Under the pieces are notes generated by a model. That model did not search any database. It worked only from the letters and a program-made list of their open reading frames with translations, and was not told where the DNA came from. A stretch of 64,000 nucleotides of DNA from Phyllobacterium myrsinacearum. Its GTDB lineage: Bacteria > Pseudomonadota > Alphaproteobacteria > Rhizobiales > Rhizobiaceae. The stretch covers positions 1,663,314 through 1,727,313 of the forward strand of contig NZ_JACGXN010000001.1 in NCBI RefSeq assembly GCF_014138285.1, given 5' to 3'. This document shows, piece by piece, positions 14,945-40,115 of this stretch (its first letter is position 1; every line of letters begins with the position of its first letter). The position numbers and the translations under genes are program-made.

Positions 14945-15189
14945 CCGTTTTCCTTTATCCTTCCGGGAACCGTTTCCCCGAGAGGTAAGCATCCTCCGCG
15001 CCAAAGCCCATACCCAAAATGCGGCTCAAAGCAAAATTGCACCCGAGGGCGCATCGCGCTGTCGGGTGTTGACCTCCGGGATCGTCAGACCCTTGCGGGG
15101 CCCCGGTCGGCTGCTCGGAGTTTGGAACTCGTCGCGGATTGATGCGCGGCTTAAACAGTAAATGCAGCTCAAAGTCAAGGTGGCCGCTG
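14945..15189 (-). promoter_or_regulatory. GC-rich structured ffh upstream region
   Basis: This 245-bp region has no credible ORF. It holds a compound hairpin at 15040-15068: a 7-bp outer stem (CACCCGA/TCGGGTG) and a 4-bp inner stem (GCGC/GCGC). On the minus strand it is followed by CAATTTTG. A GGGGCCCC palindrome lies further upstream (near 15100). This could be a leader or a short minus-strand RNA; no match to SRP RNA was recognised. Confidence 0.35.
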
Positions 15190-34558: not shown

Positions 34559-35959
34559 TTAGTGCCGGATGATCTCGATACCCAGCTTTTCGCGCCTGAG
34601 CCAACGGCTCATCAACAGAATGGCTGCTGCAGCGAGACCGGAAAGCAATCCGAGCCAGATGCCTGCGCCTTCCAGTTTCAGCCAGAAACCAAAGGCAACC
34701 GAGAGCGGCAGTCCGATGCCCCAATAGGCAATGGCAGCATAGATCATCGGTATGGTCGTGTCATGCAGTCCGCGCAGCATACCACTGGCAACGGCCTGCC
34801 CGCCGTCAAAAATCTGAAAAAGTGCGGCGAAAGCCAGAAATGAGACTGCCAGCGATACAACAGAGGCATTCGCCGGATCGTTGACATCAATGAAAGCGCG
34901 AATGAGCTGATAGGGCGCCAGCAGCATCAGCAGCGCCGTCAGAACCATGAAACCAGTGCCTGCAGTGAACGCGACCCAGCCCGCACGTTTGATGCCGTCC
35001 TTGTCCTGCGCACCGTAGGCACGGCCGATGCGCACCGTCGCGGCCTGACCAAAGCCCATGGGCACCATGAAGCTGATTGAGGCGATCTGGATGGCAATGG
35101 CATGAGCGGCAAGGGAATCGGGGCCGATAATGCCCATCAGAAACGCCGCCGCGTTGAAAATGGTCACTTCAAAGCTGAGAATCGCCGCAATGGGCAAGCC
35201 GAGACGCAGCAATTCGCCATAGCGGGCCCAGTCTGGGCGCCAGAACCGGCCAAACAGGCGATAGCGGCGAAACTGCCGGTCTTTCAGTACGACAATGACA
35301 AGGCCAATGAACATCAGGGCGGAGGAAAGCGTTGTCGCAATGCCTGAACCGACGATGCCGAGCTTGGGGAACCCGAGATTACCGAAAATCAGGCACCAGT
35401 TTGCCAGCGCGTTGAACATGACGGCGAGAACAGCGATCACCAGTGCCCAGCCGGGACGCTCCAGTGCTGCGAGGAACGAGCGGACCACGATATAGCAATA
35501 GAAGGGGAGGGCGGCCCACTGCAGAGCCCGTACATAGGCGCCTGCCTCGGCCGCGAGTGCATGATCCTGTCCCATGGCAGTCAGGATGTGTTGAGTGTTC
35601 CACAACACACACCAGATGGGGATGGAGATTGTCACGGCAATCCAGAGGCCCTGGCGCACGGTGCGACGGATTTCCCGGACAGTGTGTTTGTTGCGGCCAA
35701 GCTCCCGCGCCATCATCGGCGATGTCGCCAGCATGAGACCGAGGCCAAAGATCATCGGAACGTAGTAAAGATTGGTACCCAGTGCCCCGGCGGCCAGCGT
35801 ATGAGCGCTGACCCACCCCATCATCATGACATCAGTCGCCGTCATGGCGGTCTGGGCCAGATTTGTGAGGATCATCGGCCAGCTCAAAGCCAGCATCGCA
35901 ATGATTTCGTCACGCCATGCACGCTTTGGTGCTGCGTTTGGGGTTGAAAGGGCGGACAT
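34559..35959 (-). CDS. MATE-family multidrug efflux transporter (NorM-like)
   Basis: MATE proteins export cationic drugs in exchange for Na+ or H+. The 466-residue protein has 12 membrane helices in two homologous halves. The first half opens WPMILTNLAQTAMTATDVMM with the conserved Asp region; the second contains VTIFNAAAFLMGIIGPDSLA and GFGQAATVRIGRAYGAQDKD. The ATG at 35959 is preceded by GGAAAG; a TTG at 35989 is less likely. Upstream are two dyads, then a terminator and a 22-codon ORF on the same strand, which together suggest regulation by attenuation or a local repressor. Confidence 0.92.
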   Translation of the reverse strand: MSALSTPNAAPKRAWRDEIIAMLALSWPMILTNLAQTAMTATDVMMMGWVSAHTLAAGALGTNLYYVPMIFGLGLMLATSPMMARELGRNKHTVREIRRTVRQGLWIAVTISIPIWCVLWNTQHILTAMGQDHALAAEAGAYVRALQWAALPFYCYIVVRSFLAALERPGWALVIAVLAVMFNALANWCLIFGNLGFPKLGIVGSGIATTLSSALMFIGLVIVVLKDRQFRRYRLFGRFWRPDWARYGELLRLGLPIAAILSFEVTIFNAAAFLMGIIGPDSLAAHAIAIQIASISFMVPMGFGQAATVRIGRAYGAQDKDGIKRAGWVAFTAGTGFMVLTALLMLLAPYQLIRAFIDVNDPANASVVSLAVSFLAFAALFQIFDGGQAVASGMLRGLHDTTIPMIYAAIAYWGIGLPLSVAFGFWLKLEGAGIWLGLLSGLAAAAILLMSRWLRREKLGIEIIRH

Positions 35960-35981
35960 CGTGGGTCTTTCCGAGGGAATT

Positions 35982-36035
35982 GCCTCCAATGGAGGCAGAG
36001 TGCACCATTTTCAGGCATAAACTTGGTATCACCAA
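35982..36035. promoter_or_regulatory. Two dyads just upstream of the MATE gene
   Basis: A perfect TTGGT-ATC-ACCAA dyad is at 36023-36035 and a perfect 7-bp GCCTCCA-N-TGGAGGC dyad is at 35982-35996, 23 bp before the MATE start. Either could be a repressor operator; the first resembles GntR-type sites. No regulator gene is adjacent. Confidence 0.4.
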
Positions 36036-36087
36036 TTTCGGAAAGAGCAAAGCAGATGGAAGAGAATTCTGGCTGCCTAAACGGAAA

Positions 36088-36109
36088 GGGCCACTCCGAA
36101 GAGTGGCCC
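36088..36109 (-). terminator. UUCG-loop terminator upstream of the MATE gene
   Basis: A perfect 9-bp stem (36088-36096 with 36101-36109) has, on the minus strand, a TTCG tetraloop and a following TTTCCGTTT. It lies 66 bp past the 22-codon ORF and 129 bp before the MATE start, so it ends a short leader transcript or a separate small RNA. Confidence 0.75.
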
Positions 36110-36174
36110 CGCAATTCCGTCTGGCACAAAGCTGTCGTTTGGCCTTCTTACCCGGCGCGAGCCAGGGCGCTTAT

Positions 36175-36243
36175 TCAACGGAGAGACGATCCCCGATGGA
36201 AAGCATCAGACGCCTTGTGGCAGTTTGCGAAATCACGAGACAT
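36175..36243 (-). CDS. Putative 22-residue leader peptide with perfect Shine-Dalgarno
   Basis: A minus-strand ATG at 36243 opens 22 codons (MSRDFANCHKASDAFHRGSS then LR) and stops at 36175. Twelve bases, AAGGAGGTGATC at 36257-36246, are fully complementary to the 16S rRNA 3' end, 7 nt from the ATG when measured from AGGAGG. This is the strongest ribosome site in the window. A second 11-codon ORF overlaps it in another frame (36206-36171). The terminator at 36088-36109 follows. The peptide belongs to no family I know; it may be a leader peptide for the MATE gene or a small protein in its own right. Confidence 0.5.
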   Translation of the reverse strand: MSRDFANCHKASDAFHRGSSLR

Positions 36244-36432
36244 CAGATCACCTCCTTTTCATTCGTTGAACACAAATTGAGAATGGGGTGTATTGCCTCA
36301 GGTTTCAAGAGGAAATTTTCAACCACTCCTTTGGCTGCCCTTGAAAGTGCGTTGCCAGCCGGAAACGAAGCGCATAGGTTCTGCCAAACCTCCGGCCTAA
36401 GTATTCCGGAGTATATGATTTGGAGTTGTTGA
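36244..36432. other. Upstream region shared by the leader ORF and cfa
   Basis: No further ORF is convincing here. On the minus strand CTTGAA, 17 bases and CCATTC lie about 20-50 bp before the leader ORF and are a weak promoter candidate. GGAG just before 36433 serves cfa on the plus strand. Confidence 0.3.
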
Positions 36433-37698
36433 ATGGCGGCACAAGAGAGCGCGGCGCGGATCATCCGCACAGTCATACATATGCTGGAGCCGCAATTTGC
36501 TGTCGAACTATGGAACGGCGAACGCATCGGCGACATGGATGGGCCGGTACTCGCCATCAATGATCCGATGGCAGTGCGCCGGCTGGCGCTGAAACCCAAT
36601 ATCGGATCGATTGTCGAGTTGTGGATTTCGGGCCAGATCGACGTCAAGAACGGCACGCTTTTTGACCTTGTCGAGCGCGGGCCCAAGGGGAAGTTCAAGC
36701 AGAAGCTTAAGACGCTACCGAAATGGCAATTGCTGAAGGATGTTCCCGCATTGCTGCTCGGCGGTCGCGGGACGGATGCTTCGGGTGTCGACGGGCAGAA
36801 GCCTTTTGTCAGCGGTTCCGACAAGGCTGCCATCACCCACCACTATGATGTCTCGAACGAATTCTATCAGCTCTTCCTCGATGAACGGATGGTCTATACC
36901 TGCGCCTACTTCACGGATTGGGCGAATAGCCTCGATCAGGCACAGGAAGCCAAGCTCGACCTCATCTGCCGGAAACTGCGATTGAAGCCCGGCGAAAAGC
37001 TGTTGGATATTGGCTGCGGCTGGGGCGCAATGCTGATCCACGCGGCCAAACATTACGGAATCATCGGAACCGGCGTGTCACTTTCGGAGGCCCAGACCGC
37101 GCTGGCCCGTGAGCGGATCAAGGCAGAGGGTCTGGAAGACAAGATCACGATTCACGTGAAATCCTACGAACATCTCGATGAGCAGTTCGACAAAATCTCG
37201 TCGATCGGTATGTTCGAGCATGTTGGCATCGCCAATTACGACACGTATTTTTCCAGTGTCCATCGCTTGCTGCGGCCGGGCGGCCTTTATCTGCATCACG
37301 CGATTACCCGCCGTATGAAGCGCAACAAGAAGACGTTCGGCCGCAAGAGCGCCGAGCATCTGGCATTGGTGAAATATATCTTCCCGGGTGGTGAACTCGA
37401 CCATCTCGGCATGACAATCGAAAACCTTGAAGGTTATGGTTTCGAGGTTCACGATGTGGAAAATCTGCGCGAGCACTATGGCAAGACGTGCCGTCTGTGG
37501 GCCGATCGGCTGCATGCCCGGTTTGACGAAGCCATTGCTGAAGTCGGTGCACCAAAGGCCCGGCTCTGGCTGCTCTATCTGACCGGTTGCGCACTGGCAT
37601 TCGAGCGTGGAACCGTACAGATCAACCAGACCCTTGCATCCAGACGCAAGCGCGGGATTTCAGCGGTACCGCAGACCAGAGCAGATTTGTATCGGTAG
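36433..37698 (+). CDS. cfa: Cyclopropane-fatty-acyl-phospholipid synthase
   Basis: The enzyme adds a methylene group from SAM to unsaturated acyl chains of membrane phospholipids, typically on entry to stationary phase or under acid stress. The 421-residue protein has an N-terminal lipid-binding domain (about 1-125), then AITHHYDVSNEFYQLFLDER and MVYTCAYF. The SAM motif LLDIGCGWGAMLIHAAKHYG is near residue 190, and SIGMFEHVGIANYD and GLYLHHAITR follow. The last 90 residues match the family C-terminus. GGAG precedes the ATG. A large inverted repeat lies just downstream. Confidence 0.95.
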   Translation: MAAQESAARIIRTVIHMLEPQFAVELWNGERIGDMDGPVLAINDPMAVRRLALKPNIGSIVELWISGQIDVKNGTLFDLVERGPKGKFKQKLKTLPKWQLLKDVPALLLGGRGTDASGVDGQKPFVSGSDKAAITHHYDVSNEFYQLFLDERMVYTCAYFTDWANSLDQAQEAKLDLICRKLRLKPGEKLLDIGCGWGAMLIHAAKHYGIIGTGVSLSEAQTALARERIKAEGLEDKITIHVKSYEHLDEQFDKISSIGMFEHVGIANYDTYFSSVHRLLRPGGLYLHHAITRRMKRNKKTFGRKSAEHLALVKYIFPGGELDHLGMTIENLEGYGFEVHDVENLREHYGKTCRLWADRLHARFDEAIAEVGAPKARLWLLYLTGCALAFERGTVQINQTLASRRKRGISAVPQTRADLYR

Positions 37699-37866: not shown

Positions 37867-39819
37867 TCAGCCCTTTTTGTTCTGCCGGTTGGCGATCAAG
37901 TCATCGACAACGGCGGGATCGGCCAATGTCGATGTATCGCCCAATGAGCCGAAATCGTCCTCGGCGATCTTGCGCAGGATGCGGCGCATGATCTTGCCCG
38001 AGCGTGTCTTGGGCAAGCCCGGTGCGAACTGGATCTTGTCCGGAGAGGCAATTGGCCCGATTTCCTTGCGCACGTGGGTGACGAGTTCCTTGCGCAGCTC
38101 GTCCGTACCTTCAAGGCCGGCCATCAGCGTGACATAACAATAGATGCCCTGACCTTTGAGATCATGCGGGTAGCCGACGACGGCGGCTTCCGAAACCGTA
38201 TCATGAGATACAAGGGCGGATTCCACCTCGGCAGTGCCCATGCGGTGCCCCGAGACATTGAGCACATCATCAACGCGGCCGGTGATCCAGTAATAGCCGT
38301 CCTTGTCGCGGCGGCAGCCGTCCCCGGTAAAATACTTGCCCTTGTATGTGGAGAAGTAAGCCTCAATGAAGCGTTTGTGATCGCCATAAAGCGTGCGCAT
38401 CTGGCCCGGCCATGAGTCGGTGATGCAGAGGTTGCCATCGGCAGCGCCTGCCAGCACATCCCCTTCATTGTCGACAAGCTGCGGCTGTACGCCGAAGAAT
38501 GGGCGCGTGGCAGAACCCGGTTTCAGGTCGGTGGCACCCGGCAACGGGGTGATGAGAATGCCGCCGGTTTCCGTCTGCCACCAGGTATCGACGATGGGCG
38601 AGCGCTTGTCGCCGACCACCTGATAGTACCATTCCCAGGCTTCCGGATTGATCGGTTCGCCGACGGAGCCAAGAATACGCAGCGACTTGCGTGAAGTCTT
38701 CTTGACCGGTTCATCCCCGGCACTCATCAACGCGCGAATGGCAGTGGGAGCCGTGTAGAAGATATTGACCTTGTGCTTGTCGATGACTTCCCAGAAGCGC
38801 GAATTGGTCGGGTAGTTGGGAACACCCTCGAACATCAGCGTTGTAGCACCGTTGGCAAGCGGGCCATAGACGATGTAGGAATGGCCAGTGACCCAGCCCA
38901 CGTCGGCCGTACACCAGTAAATATCGCCGTCGTGATAATCGAAGACATATTGGTGGGTCATCGAGGCGTAGACGAGATAGCCGCCGGTCGTGTGCAGCAC
39001 ACCCTTCGGCTTGCCGGTGGAACCCGAAGTGTAAAGGATGAACAGCGGGTCTTCCGCCTTCATTTTTTCCGGCTTGCAATCGGGCTTAACGCTGAGAATT
39101 TCCTCGTGGTACCAGAAATCGCGGTTGGGTGCCCAGGTGGTCTTGCCGCCGGTGCGGCGGACAACCAGCACGCTCTTCACCATCACATGATGCTTGGCGG
39201 CGATGTCGATGGCCTTGTCGGTGTTATCCTTGAGCGGGATCGGCTTGCCGCCGCGCATGCCTTCATCGGCGGTGATGACGAAGGTCGATTCGCAATCAAT
39301 GATACGGCCTGCCAGGGCATCGGGCGAGAAGCCGCCGAAAACAACGGAATGGACAGCGCCGATACGCGAGCAGGCGAGCATGGCGTAGGTCGCTTCCACA
39401 ATCATCGGCATGTAGATCGTTACACGGTCACCCTTCTTGACCCCGTGCTTTTTCAGCACGTTGGCGAGACGGCAGACCTGCTCGTGCAGTTCGTTATAGG
39501 TGACTTTCTTGTCGAGATAGGGATTGTCACCTTCCCAGATAATGGCGACCTGATCGCCGCGCGTCTTCAGATGCCGGTCGATACAGTTGTAAGAGACGTT
39601 GGTCTGGCCATCCTCAAACCATTTGATTGAGACCTTGCCGTCGAAGGAAGTGTTTTTGACCTTGGTGTAAGGCTTGAACCAATCGATGCGCTTGCCGTGC
39701 TTGGACCAGAACTTCTCCGGATCCTTGATGCTCTGCTTGTACCAGGCGAGGTACGTTTCATTGTCGATAAGCGCGTTTTTCTTCGCGCTTGGCAGCACGG
39801 GATAGACCTTCTCGGACAT
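37867..39819 (-). CDS. acs: Acetyl-CoA synthetase
   Basis: Acs activates acetate to acetyl-CoA through acetyl-AMP. The 650-residue protein has the adenylate-forming signature [20 protein letters not shown] near residue 263, [16 protein letters not shown] near 413, and the C-terminal swinging domain with [15 protein letters not shown], whose Lys near residue 609 is the site of regulatory acetylation. Length and N-terminal ACS segment ([20 protein letters not shown]) match the family. GGAGGAAATTG precedes the ATG at 39819; the codon before it is a TTG. It stands alone. Confidence 0.97.
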
Positions 39820-40115
39820 CAATTTCCTCCAAACCTGAGCTGACGGGCCTCCACCCGGATGCCTCCCGGAGAGAGAGGCGCATGGCCTTCATTATCACCA
39901 TGCAAATCGATGCGTAAATACAACAAATGCCCCTGAGGGAATGGCGTTCCGTCGCACACGATCCACAACGCATTGTAATATTGCGTTACATTTTGTTATG
40001 GGCCGTGGTCCATTTTGAACACATTTTGCCTTAGACCGTCACTGCCTTGACTGGGGAGGATAATTTTGGCGCGCCGTGTGGACTGAGAAGCGCGTGCCCA
40101 ATCAAGGACTGATGA
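39820..40115. other. Upstream region of acs and the DUF882 gene
   Basis: This 296-bp divergent region has no ORF. A perfect dyad TGTAA-N7-TTACA is at 39974-39990, about 155 bp before the acs start and 126 bp before the DUF882 gene. It could be an operator for either gene. No promoter was identified with confidence. Confidence 0.35.

Follow-up and report, generated by a model that had tools for sequence, protein, structure and literature searches.

A CC2171-type small RNA gene with a conserved, probably translated short frame beside a MATE exporter gene in Phyllobacterium myrsinacearum

In the 64,000-nt stretch of Phyllobacterium myrsinacearum DNA that we analysed (hereafter the window), a compact minus-strand unit lies between cfa (36433-37698, plus strand, Pfam CMAS) and a MATE exporter gene (34559-35989, minus strand, Pfam MatE). 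It comprises promoter-like boxes, a short 5′ end, a complement to the 3′ tail of 16S rRNA, a short open reading frame (ORF), hairpins and a terminator. A first-pass annotation had offered two readings of this layout, a ribosome-mediated attenuator of the exporter gene or a gene for a small protein or small RNA, and the question is which of them the locus and its relatives bear out.

All the parts described here lie on the minus strand. A promoter (36280-36309) was predicted from the sequence, with a −35 box CTTGAA at 36309-36304 (or TTGAAA at 36308-36303), a 17-nt spacer and a −10 box CATTCT at 36285-36280. In 99 homologues found with the covariance model R1, described below, TTG is concentrated 50-53 nt ahead of the ribosome site (60 occurrences) and.A...T 26-29 nt ahead of it (83 occurrences, against a median of 6 per position for this motif). 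The predicted RNA of ~195 nt (36079-36272), whose ends were placed from the promoter and the terminator, begins with the short 5′ end UGUUCAAC. The complement to the 16S tail, AAAGGAGGTGATC, had been read as 12 bases (36257-36246); it is there, but it is 13 nt long and occupies 36246-36258. The 22-codon ORF MSRDFANCHKASDAFHRGSSLR, with a TGA stop (36175-36243), is present as annotated. Two arms of a long-range helix that we call P1 are CGUGAUUUC, nucleotides +7 to +15 of the ORF (36229-36237), and GGAAUUGCG, immediately 5′ of the terminator stem (36110-36118). Hairpin H2 (CGGGGA-UCGUC-UCUCCG, 36179-36195) covers the last codons of the ORF. A lineage-specific hairpin follows the stop codon (CCCUGGC-UCGC-GCCGGG, 36151-36167); Phyllobacterium sequences compared by eye show compensating differences in it. 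The intrinsic terminator (36079-36109) has its stem-loop at 36109-36088, 65 nt past the stop codon; the perfect 9-bp stem and UUCG loop reported for it were found, but the U-tract is poor (UUUCCGUUU). A scan of the window for tRNA and tmRNA genes found none. Elsewhere in the window, Rfam places an ffh small RNA (RF01793) at 15032-15083 on the minus strand, with 71.2 bits and above its cut-off.

At gathering scores, Rfam returned nothing at the element or in ten loci with diverse relatives. A permissive scan (291 bases) gave a match to RF01867, the CC2171 family, at 36268-36087, covering the model from end to end (positions 1-159 of 159) with 32.1 bits and E=2.3e-5, short of the family's gathering cut-off of 75 bits. 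This is the sole RF01867 match in the genome, and among 14 control genomes only Caulobacter vibrioides matched. Nine of ten sources, the window's locus included, matched RF01867 at E<=0.01, two of them above the cut-off, and locus L340 gave no match at that threshold; in a scan of the class, 40 of 192 genomes matched, six above the cut-off. The model R1 was built from sequences picked independently of RF01867, namely 75 of 155 distinct homologues (76 were chosen and L113 was excluded), and was used at E<=1e-3, its E-values being rough by the tool's own statement. At the predicted RNA, R1 and RF01867 match the same place, and they do so, by eye, in 38 of the 40 RF01867-matched genomes (exceptions G557 and G657), so that the element is continuous with the sequences above the RF01867 cut-off. 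The end-to-end match and this co-location indicate one continuous series in which the window RNA is, by sequence, a distant CC2171 homologue below the formal cut-off, and the element is almost certainly a free-standing RNA gene of the CC2171 type.

CC2171 is a known but little-studied small RNA, which is said to stem from the work of Landt and colleagues in 2008. It shares with the window RNA a 5′ block with GAAAGGAGGUGAUCC, a start codon and a long-range helix ending right before a GC-rich terminator, and all six CC2171 loci above the cut-off have ORFs of 22-26 codons, as in the window. The two differ in the start codon, which is ATG in the window and GTG in CC2171, and in the H2 hairpin. Rfam types RF01867 as a small RNA and we saw no mention of an ORF there, whereas the window RNA carries one. 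No description of an ORF of CC2171 was found in the literature searched, and a search with RNA or peptide sequence strings matched no paper.

How far does the element extend? A 430-bp query matched 25 of 59 genomes, including all 20 of the genus Phyllobacterium, and the conserved block in these 20 members runs from promoter through terminator (36319-36072). The 18-mer around the ribosome site, AGGAGGTGATCYGATGTC, was found in 41 of 397 genomes of the order and 58 of 151 of the family, at most once per genome, and its reversed control had no match in these scans. It occurs in at least 118 stretches of named genomes, with carriers among the matches listed in Mesorhizobium, Hoeflea, Aureimonas, Hyphomicrobium, Rhodomicrobium, Ponticaulis, Oceanicaulis, SAR116 and Rhodospirillaceae bins. 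R1 matched 83 of 289 genomes of the class and 118 of 151 of the family (E<=1e-3), mostly once per genome; in another genus of the family each of eight genomes had one strong match (E 5e-16 or better), with numerous weak ones in a listing extended to E 10. The remaining 206 of the 289 sampled class genomes had no R1 match, so the element is widespread, not universal. The 100-source set omitted some loci, including near-duplicates, L226, L243-L246, L347, L351, L353, L354, L356-L359 and L361-L363.

A sample of the phylum gave matches in 45 of 199 genomes, two of them outside the class: G865 (E 1.3e-12) and G962 (E 2.3e-4, partial). The strong match in G865 (L334) and a pattern match at L147, from a bin whose title reads Gammaproteobacteria, may reflect transfer, wrong binning or a wider distribution. 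One genome of the class, G564, holds two strong copies (L292 and L309) plus a third weak match; the ORFs of the strong copies differ (MSHCH... and MSHGS...), and the two copies indicate that this RNA family can duplicate. Two loci are atypical: L318 has the ribosome-site block followed by a 56-codon frame resembling an exported protein, and L040 has the block but lacks the usual pre-terminator motif. The ribosome-site block alone is therefore no proof of membership.

The MATE gene does lie where it had been described, with a probable ATG at 35959, on the same strand and 129 bp beyond the terminator stem. It follows directly on the same strand in five of 20 Phyllobacterium species, that of the window included, which is the evidence in favour of a leader. 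A tblastn search with the MATE protein and two small genes found opposite-strand addiction-module genes between the terminator and MATE in the other 15 species: an antidote gene (Pfam dnstrm_HI1420) and, in 14 of the 15, a match to its partner. The antidote, alone or with the partner, is present at L002-L005, L008-L016, L019 and L020 and missing in the window (36088-35989) and four others, so that gain or loss happened within Phyllobacterium; at L010 the partner gene is in two broken pieces. Outside the genus, MATE was found at none of 169 loci (median ~1.5 kb available on either side). Of 184 loci, 105 have their next downstream ORF on the opposite strand, 66 have it on the same strand and 13 have none within the stretch, so a leader or attenuator would have no conserved same-strand target directly downstream. 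No antiterminator competing with the terminator stem was evident in the folds inspected, in which the conserved helices leave the stem intact; P1 abuts the terminator without using its stem bases. We rejected the element as a MATE leader or attenuator on this synteny, and a ribosome-mediated control of the exporter gene can hardly be true. The element does not resemble a switch for the adjacent drug exporter gene: it is real and conserved, and MATE is the wrong partner. The other half of the first-pass annotation, a small-protein or small RNA gene, fits a free-standing RNA gene homologous to a Caulobacter small RNA, with an ORF that looks translated, so the annotation as a whole is partly supported.

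On the other side of the element, an acs-like gene (acetyl-CoA synthetase) is upstream in 61 of the 169 non-Phyllobacterium loci, on the same strand in 60, and none was found within the available stretch in the other 108. In the window, acs is at 37867-39822, with cfa between it and the element. The other neighbours scanned are diverse (Clp protease, glutathione peroxidase, CoA transferase and others). A functional link to acs was set aside on this absence and diversity, and we take the adjacency as inherited position rather than function.

R1 gave 103 rows; three of these (one each at L239, L296 and L338) were incomplete or on the opposite strand and were set aside. All 100 full-length matches have a start codon (ATG, GTG or TTG) at the right place. 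Among the 95 parsed by script there are 62 ATG, 26 GTG and 7 TTG; in the other five, judged by eye, codon 2 is not UCN. The ORF is 18-30 codons long in 87 of these 95 homologues. In non-redundant sets of 88 of the 99 model-found and 66 of the 151 pattern-found members, frame 0 stays free of stops through codon 18 in 87/88 and 66/66, against 42-80% for frames +1 and +2 and 60-65% for shuffles, and its first stop lies within codons 19-31 in 80/88 and 66/66. An excess of third-position substitutions was sought in the Phyllobacterium and Mesorhizobium-like sets and none was found: substitutions at positions 1/2/3 number 66/219/182 and 3004/2962/2126, respectively (all pairs summed and not independent), and single-change codons are non-synonymous over synonymous by 143 to 56 and 2405 to 938. 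The H2 motif GGAGCAGCC falls in reading frames that differ between lineages, as counted from clear cases only; the motif search left 37 of 155 sequences without a hit and gave spurious hits, for example at L002, L007, L018, L020, L047, L057 and L088. An open frame and a kept length with no third-position excess mean that start, frame and length are conserved and the peptide is not. In the comparison of codons with structure that had been suggested as a check, the structure and the start, frame and length are conserved but the amino acids drift. Conserved start, frame and length are what is expected of a dual-function RNA, and the short frame is probably translated, to judge by its sequence. 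New here are the frame and length conserved despite amino-acid drift and the long-range helix P1.

The ribosome site is a further new feature: ATG, GTG or TTG stands right after a 10-15-nt complement to the 16S tail in 100/100 full-length matches, the match being 15 nt long in 60 and 10-14 nt in the rest. In Rhizobium-type members the site is interrupted as GGAAGG. In the 5.97-Mb draft assembly the window's 13-mer is unique; that search met no 16S 3′ end, and the complement was judged against the standard 16S tail sequence. The predicted duplex with this tail has an energy of −23.6 kcal/mol for the window and −29.7 kcal/mol for the consensus, against −8.3 kcal/mol for a made-up ordinary site. 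The constancy of the site is partly ascertainment, as R1 leans on that block.

The window RNA folds more stably than shuffled versions of it (z −3.18; 1 of 200 as good). Helices P1, H2 and the terminator were counted on a MAFFT alignment of the 75 homologues, in which 85.2% of cells pair, against 74.3% in shuffled alignments (0/500 reached the observed value) and 44-53% after sliding. Both sides change in 23 of the 28 pairs, H2 contributes 9 of 9, and the terminator stem covaries. The model-fitted alignment of the 103 matches, which favours the structure, gave 88.6% against 64.2%. P1 joins codons 3-5 to the foot of the terminator, and its pairing is kept across lineages as GUGAG/CUCAC, CAUUGUC/GACAAUG and CGUGAUUUC/GGAAUUGCG. 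In a cleaner, alignment-free partner-swap test, restricted to sequences with a terminator found and distinct arms, P1 arms paired better with their own partners than with those of other species (z −12.4, n=78; z −9.3, n=100; −13.4 and −9.2 in a first run). Controls with reversed or displaced segments gave z from −3.2 to +1.6, not all at zero, which is a point against the mechanism proposed below. The strict terminator finder succeeded in 113 of 155 sequences; in several of the 42 that it missed, mismatches in the stem are visible by eye. P1 itself, like the homology, the distribution and the conservation of start, frame and length, came directly out of the computations. For the window RNA, a fold that contains both P1 and H2 costs 2.7 kcal/mol more than the minimum, or 1.2 more with the ribosome site kept free, so that P1 is not the predicted ground state; these energies do not support P1 as the dominant fold of the RNA of this species. 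H2 is gapped in 43-49 of 103 class-wide rows per pair, missing or unaligned there, and this counts against the mechanism that we propose below.

What might such an RNA do? The reading that we favour, tentatively and a little short of calling it probable, is that ribosomes loading onto its own short frame govern how it folds. The gene, a free-standing small RNA gene of CC2171 type with a wide distribution in the Alphaproteobacteria, would double as a tiny mRNA, on which the 30S subunit would dock through the near-complete complement to the 16S tail and start at the ATG, GTG or TTG ~7 nt past GGAGG. Selection would retain the RNA structure and translation as such (start, frame and length) rather than the peptide. 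The 5′ arm of P1, which starts at codon 3, would lie within the footprint of an initiating 30S, and a terminating ribosome would cover H2, over the last codons where H2 exists; with P1 inside the footprint and H2 over the last codons, translation and folding would be mutually exclusive. The availability of free 30S subunits whose 16S tail is intact would set the state of the RNA, open and translated or closed, and the closed RNA would then be stable, or active as a trans-acting regulator. We infer translation in this organism, the exclusion between ribosome and folding, and a regulatory output. The further step, that this widespread, usually single-copy RNA, its folding gated by translation of a frame fixed in length but free in sequence, is a built-in gauge of free, intact 30S that reports through its own activity, we hold to be somewhat unlikely. 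Also counted against the mechanism is the record in Caulobacter, where, in the part of the paper available to us, two earlier ncRNAs, left unnamed there, are reported translated and most are not (PMC4117421).

Three other explanations compete with ribosome-governed folding. The RNA could be an ordinary trans-acting, base-pairing small RNA whose ORF is translated merely for protection or as an accompaniment, free of regulatory meaning; the Rfam typing, the conserved stand-alone gene with its terminator and the conservation of structure but not of peptide all suit it, yet almost every member retains the start, the frame and the length, beyond what an incidental ORF needs, and we think this explanation unlikely. 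If instead the 18-30-aa peptide were the product, the conserved frame and length and a Met-Ser start in 95/100 would follow naturally, and a detected Sinorhizobium meliloti peptide, SEP1, may be the local version (see below). The absence of a third-position excess, the dominance of non-synonymous single changes in both sets and a hairpin motif whose frame varies by lineage argue against it, and a small-protein gene seems to us decidedly unlikely.

The RNA might also be a ribosome decoy, with the job of occupying 30S through its near-complete complement to the 16S tail. The complement present in every full-length match and a predicted duplex far more stable than that of the ordinary site speak for this; the conserved frame length, P1 and the pairing next to the terminator would be left unexplained, and we consider a decoy very doubtful.

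Among published data, a close entry is MH_s33 of Mesorhizobium huakuii, a 215-nt RNA-seq product listed as RF01867 (PMC5596092, Table 1); the part of that paper available to us held no mention of its translation or function. Its size is close to the R1 span of 211-214 nt in Mesorhizobium genomes G103, G139, G170, G243, G263, G282 and G299. It comes from another genus than the window and is equated by the RF01867 listing and size, not by sequence. A comparable case is rnTrpL/RcsR1 of S. meliloti with its peptide peTrpL, described in the accessible parts of two papers as a trans-acting small RNA and tiny mRNA (PMC7143759, PMC10117765). The window RNA is like it in being a small RNA that doubles as a tiny mRNA, with trans action proposed for the window RNA; unlike it, rnTrpL is leaderless, derives from the trp attenuator and has no such ribosome-site block, and no homology between the two was found as far as examined. 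According to PMC7143759, RcsR1 coincides in position with rnTrpL, and the identification of our element with RcsR1 was rejected on that account. SEP1 of S. meliloti, in the portion of PMC10117765 at hand, is a 23-aa peptide of pI 4.18, positive in a Western blot and with the top translation efficiency among 54 high-confidence candidates. Acidic peptides of 22-25 aa are encoded by many of the Rhizobiaceae homologues inspected (basic ones at L345, L346, L350 and L351), and on this likeness SEP1 may be the local version of our ORF.

What had been catalogued as a lone small RNA thus seems to be a gene of wide distribution whose short frame is conserved and probably translated. RF01867 at its cut-off had missed this distribution, with 6 of 192 class genomes against the 83 of 289 in the class and 118 of 151 in the family reached by R1. 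In this family one could test cleanly if, in a stand-alone RNA, translation can be retained by selection when the peptide is not, and also how a nearly complete complement to the 16S tail behaves in initiation.
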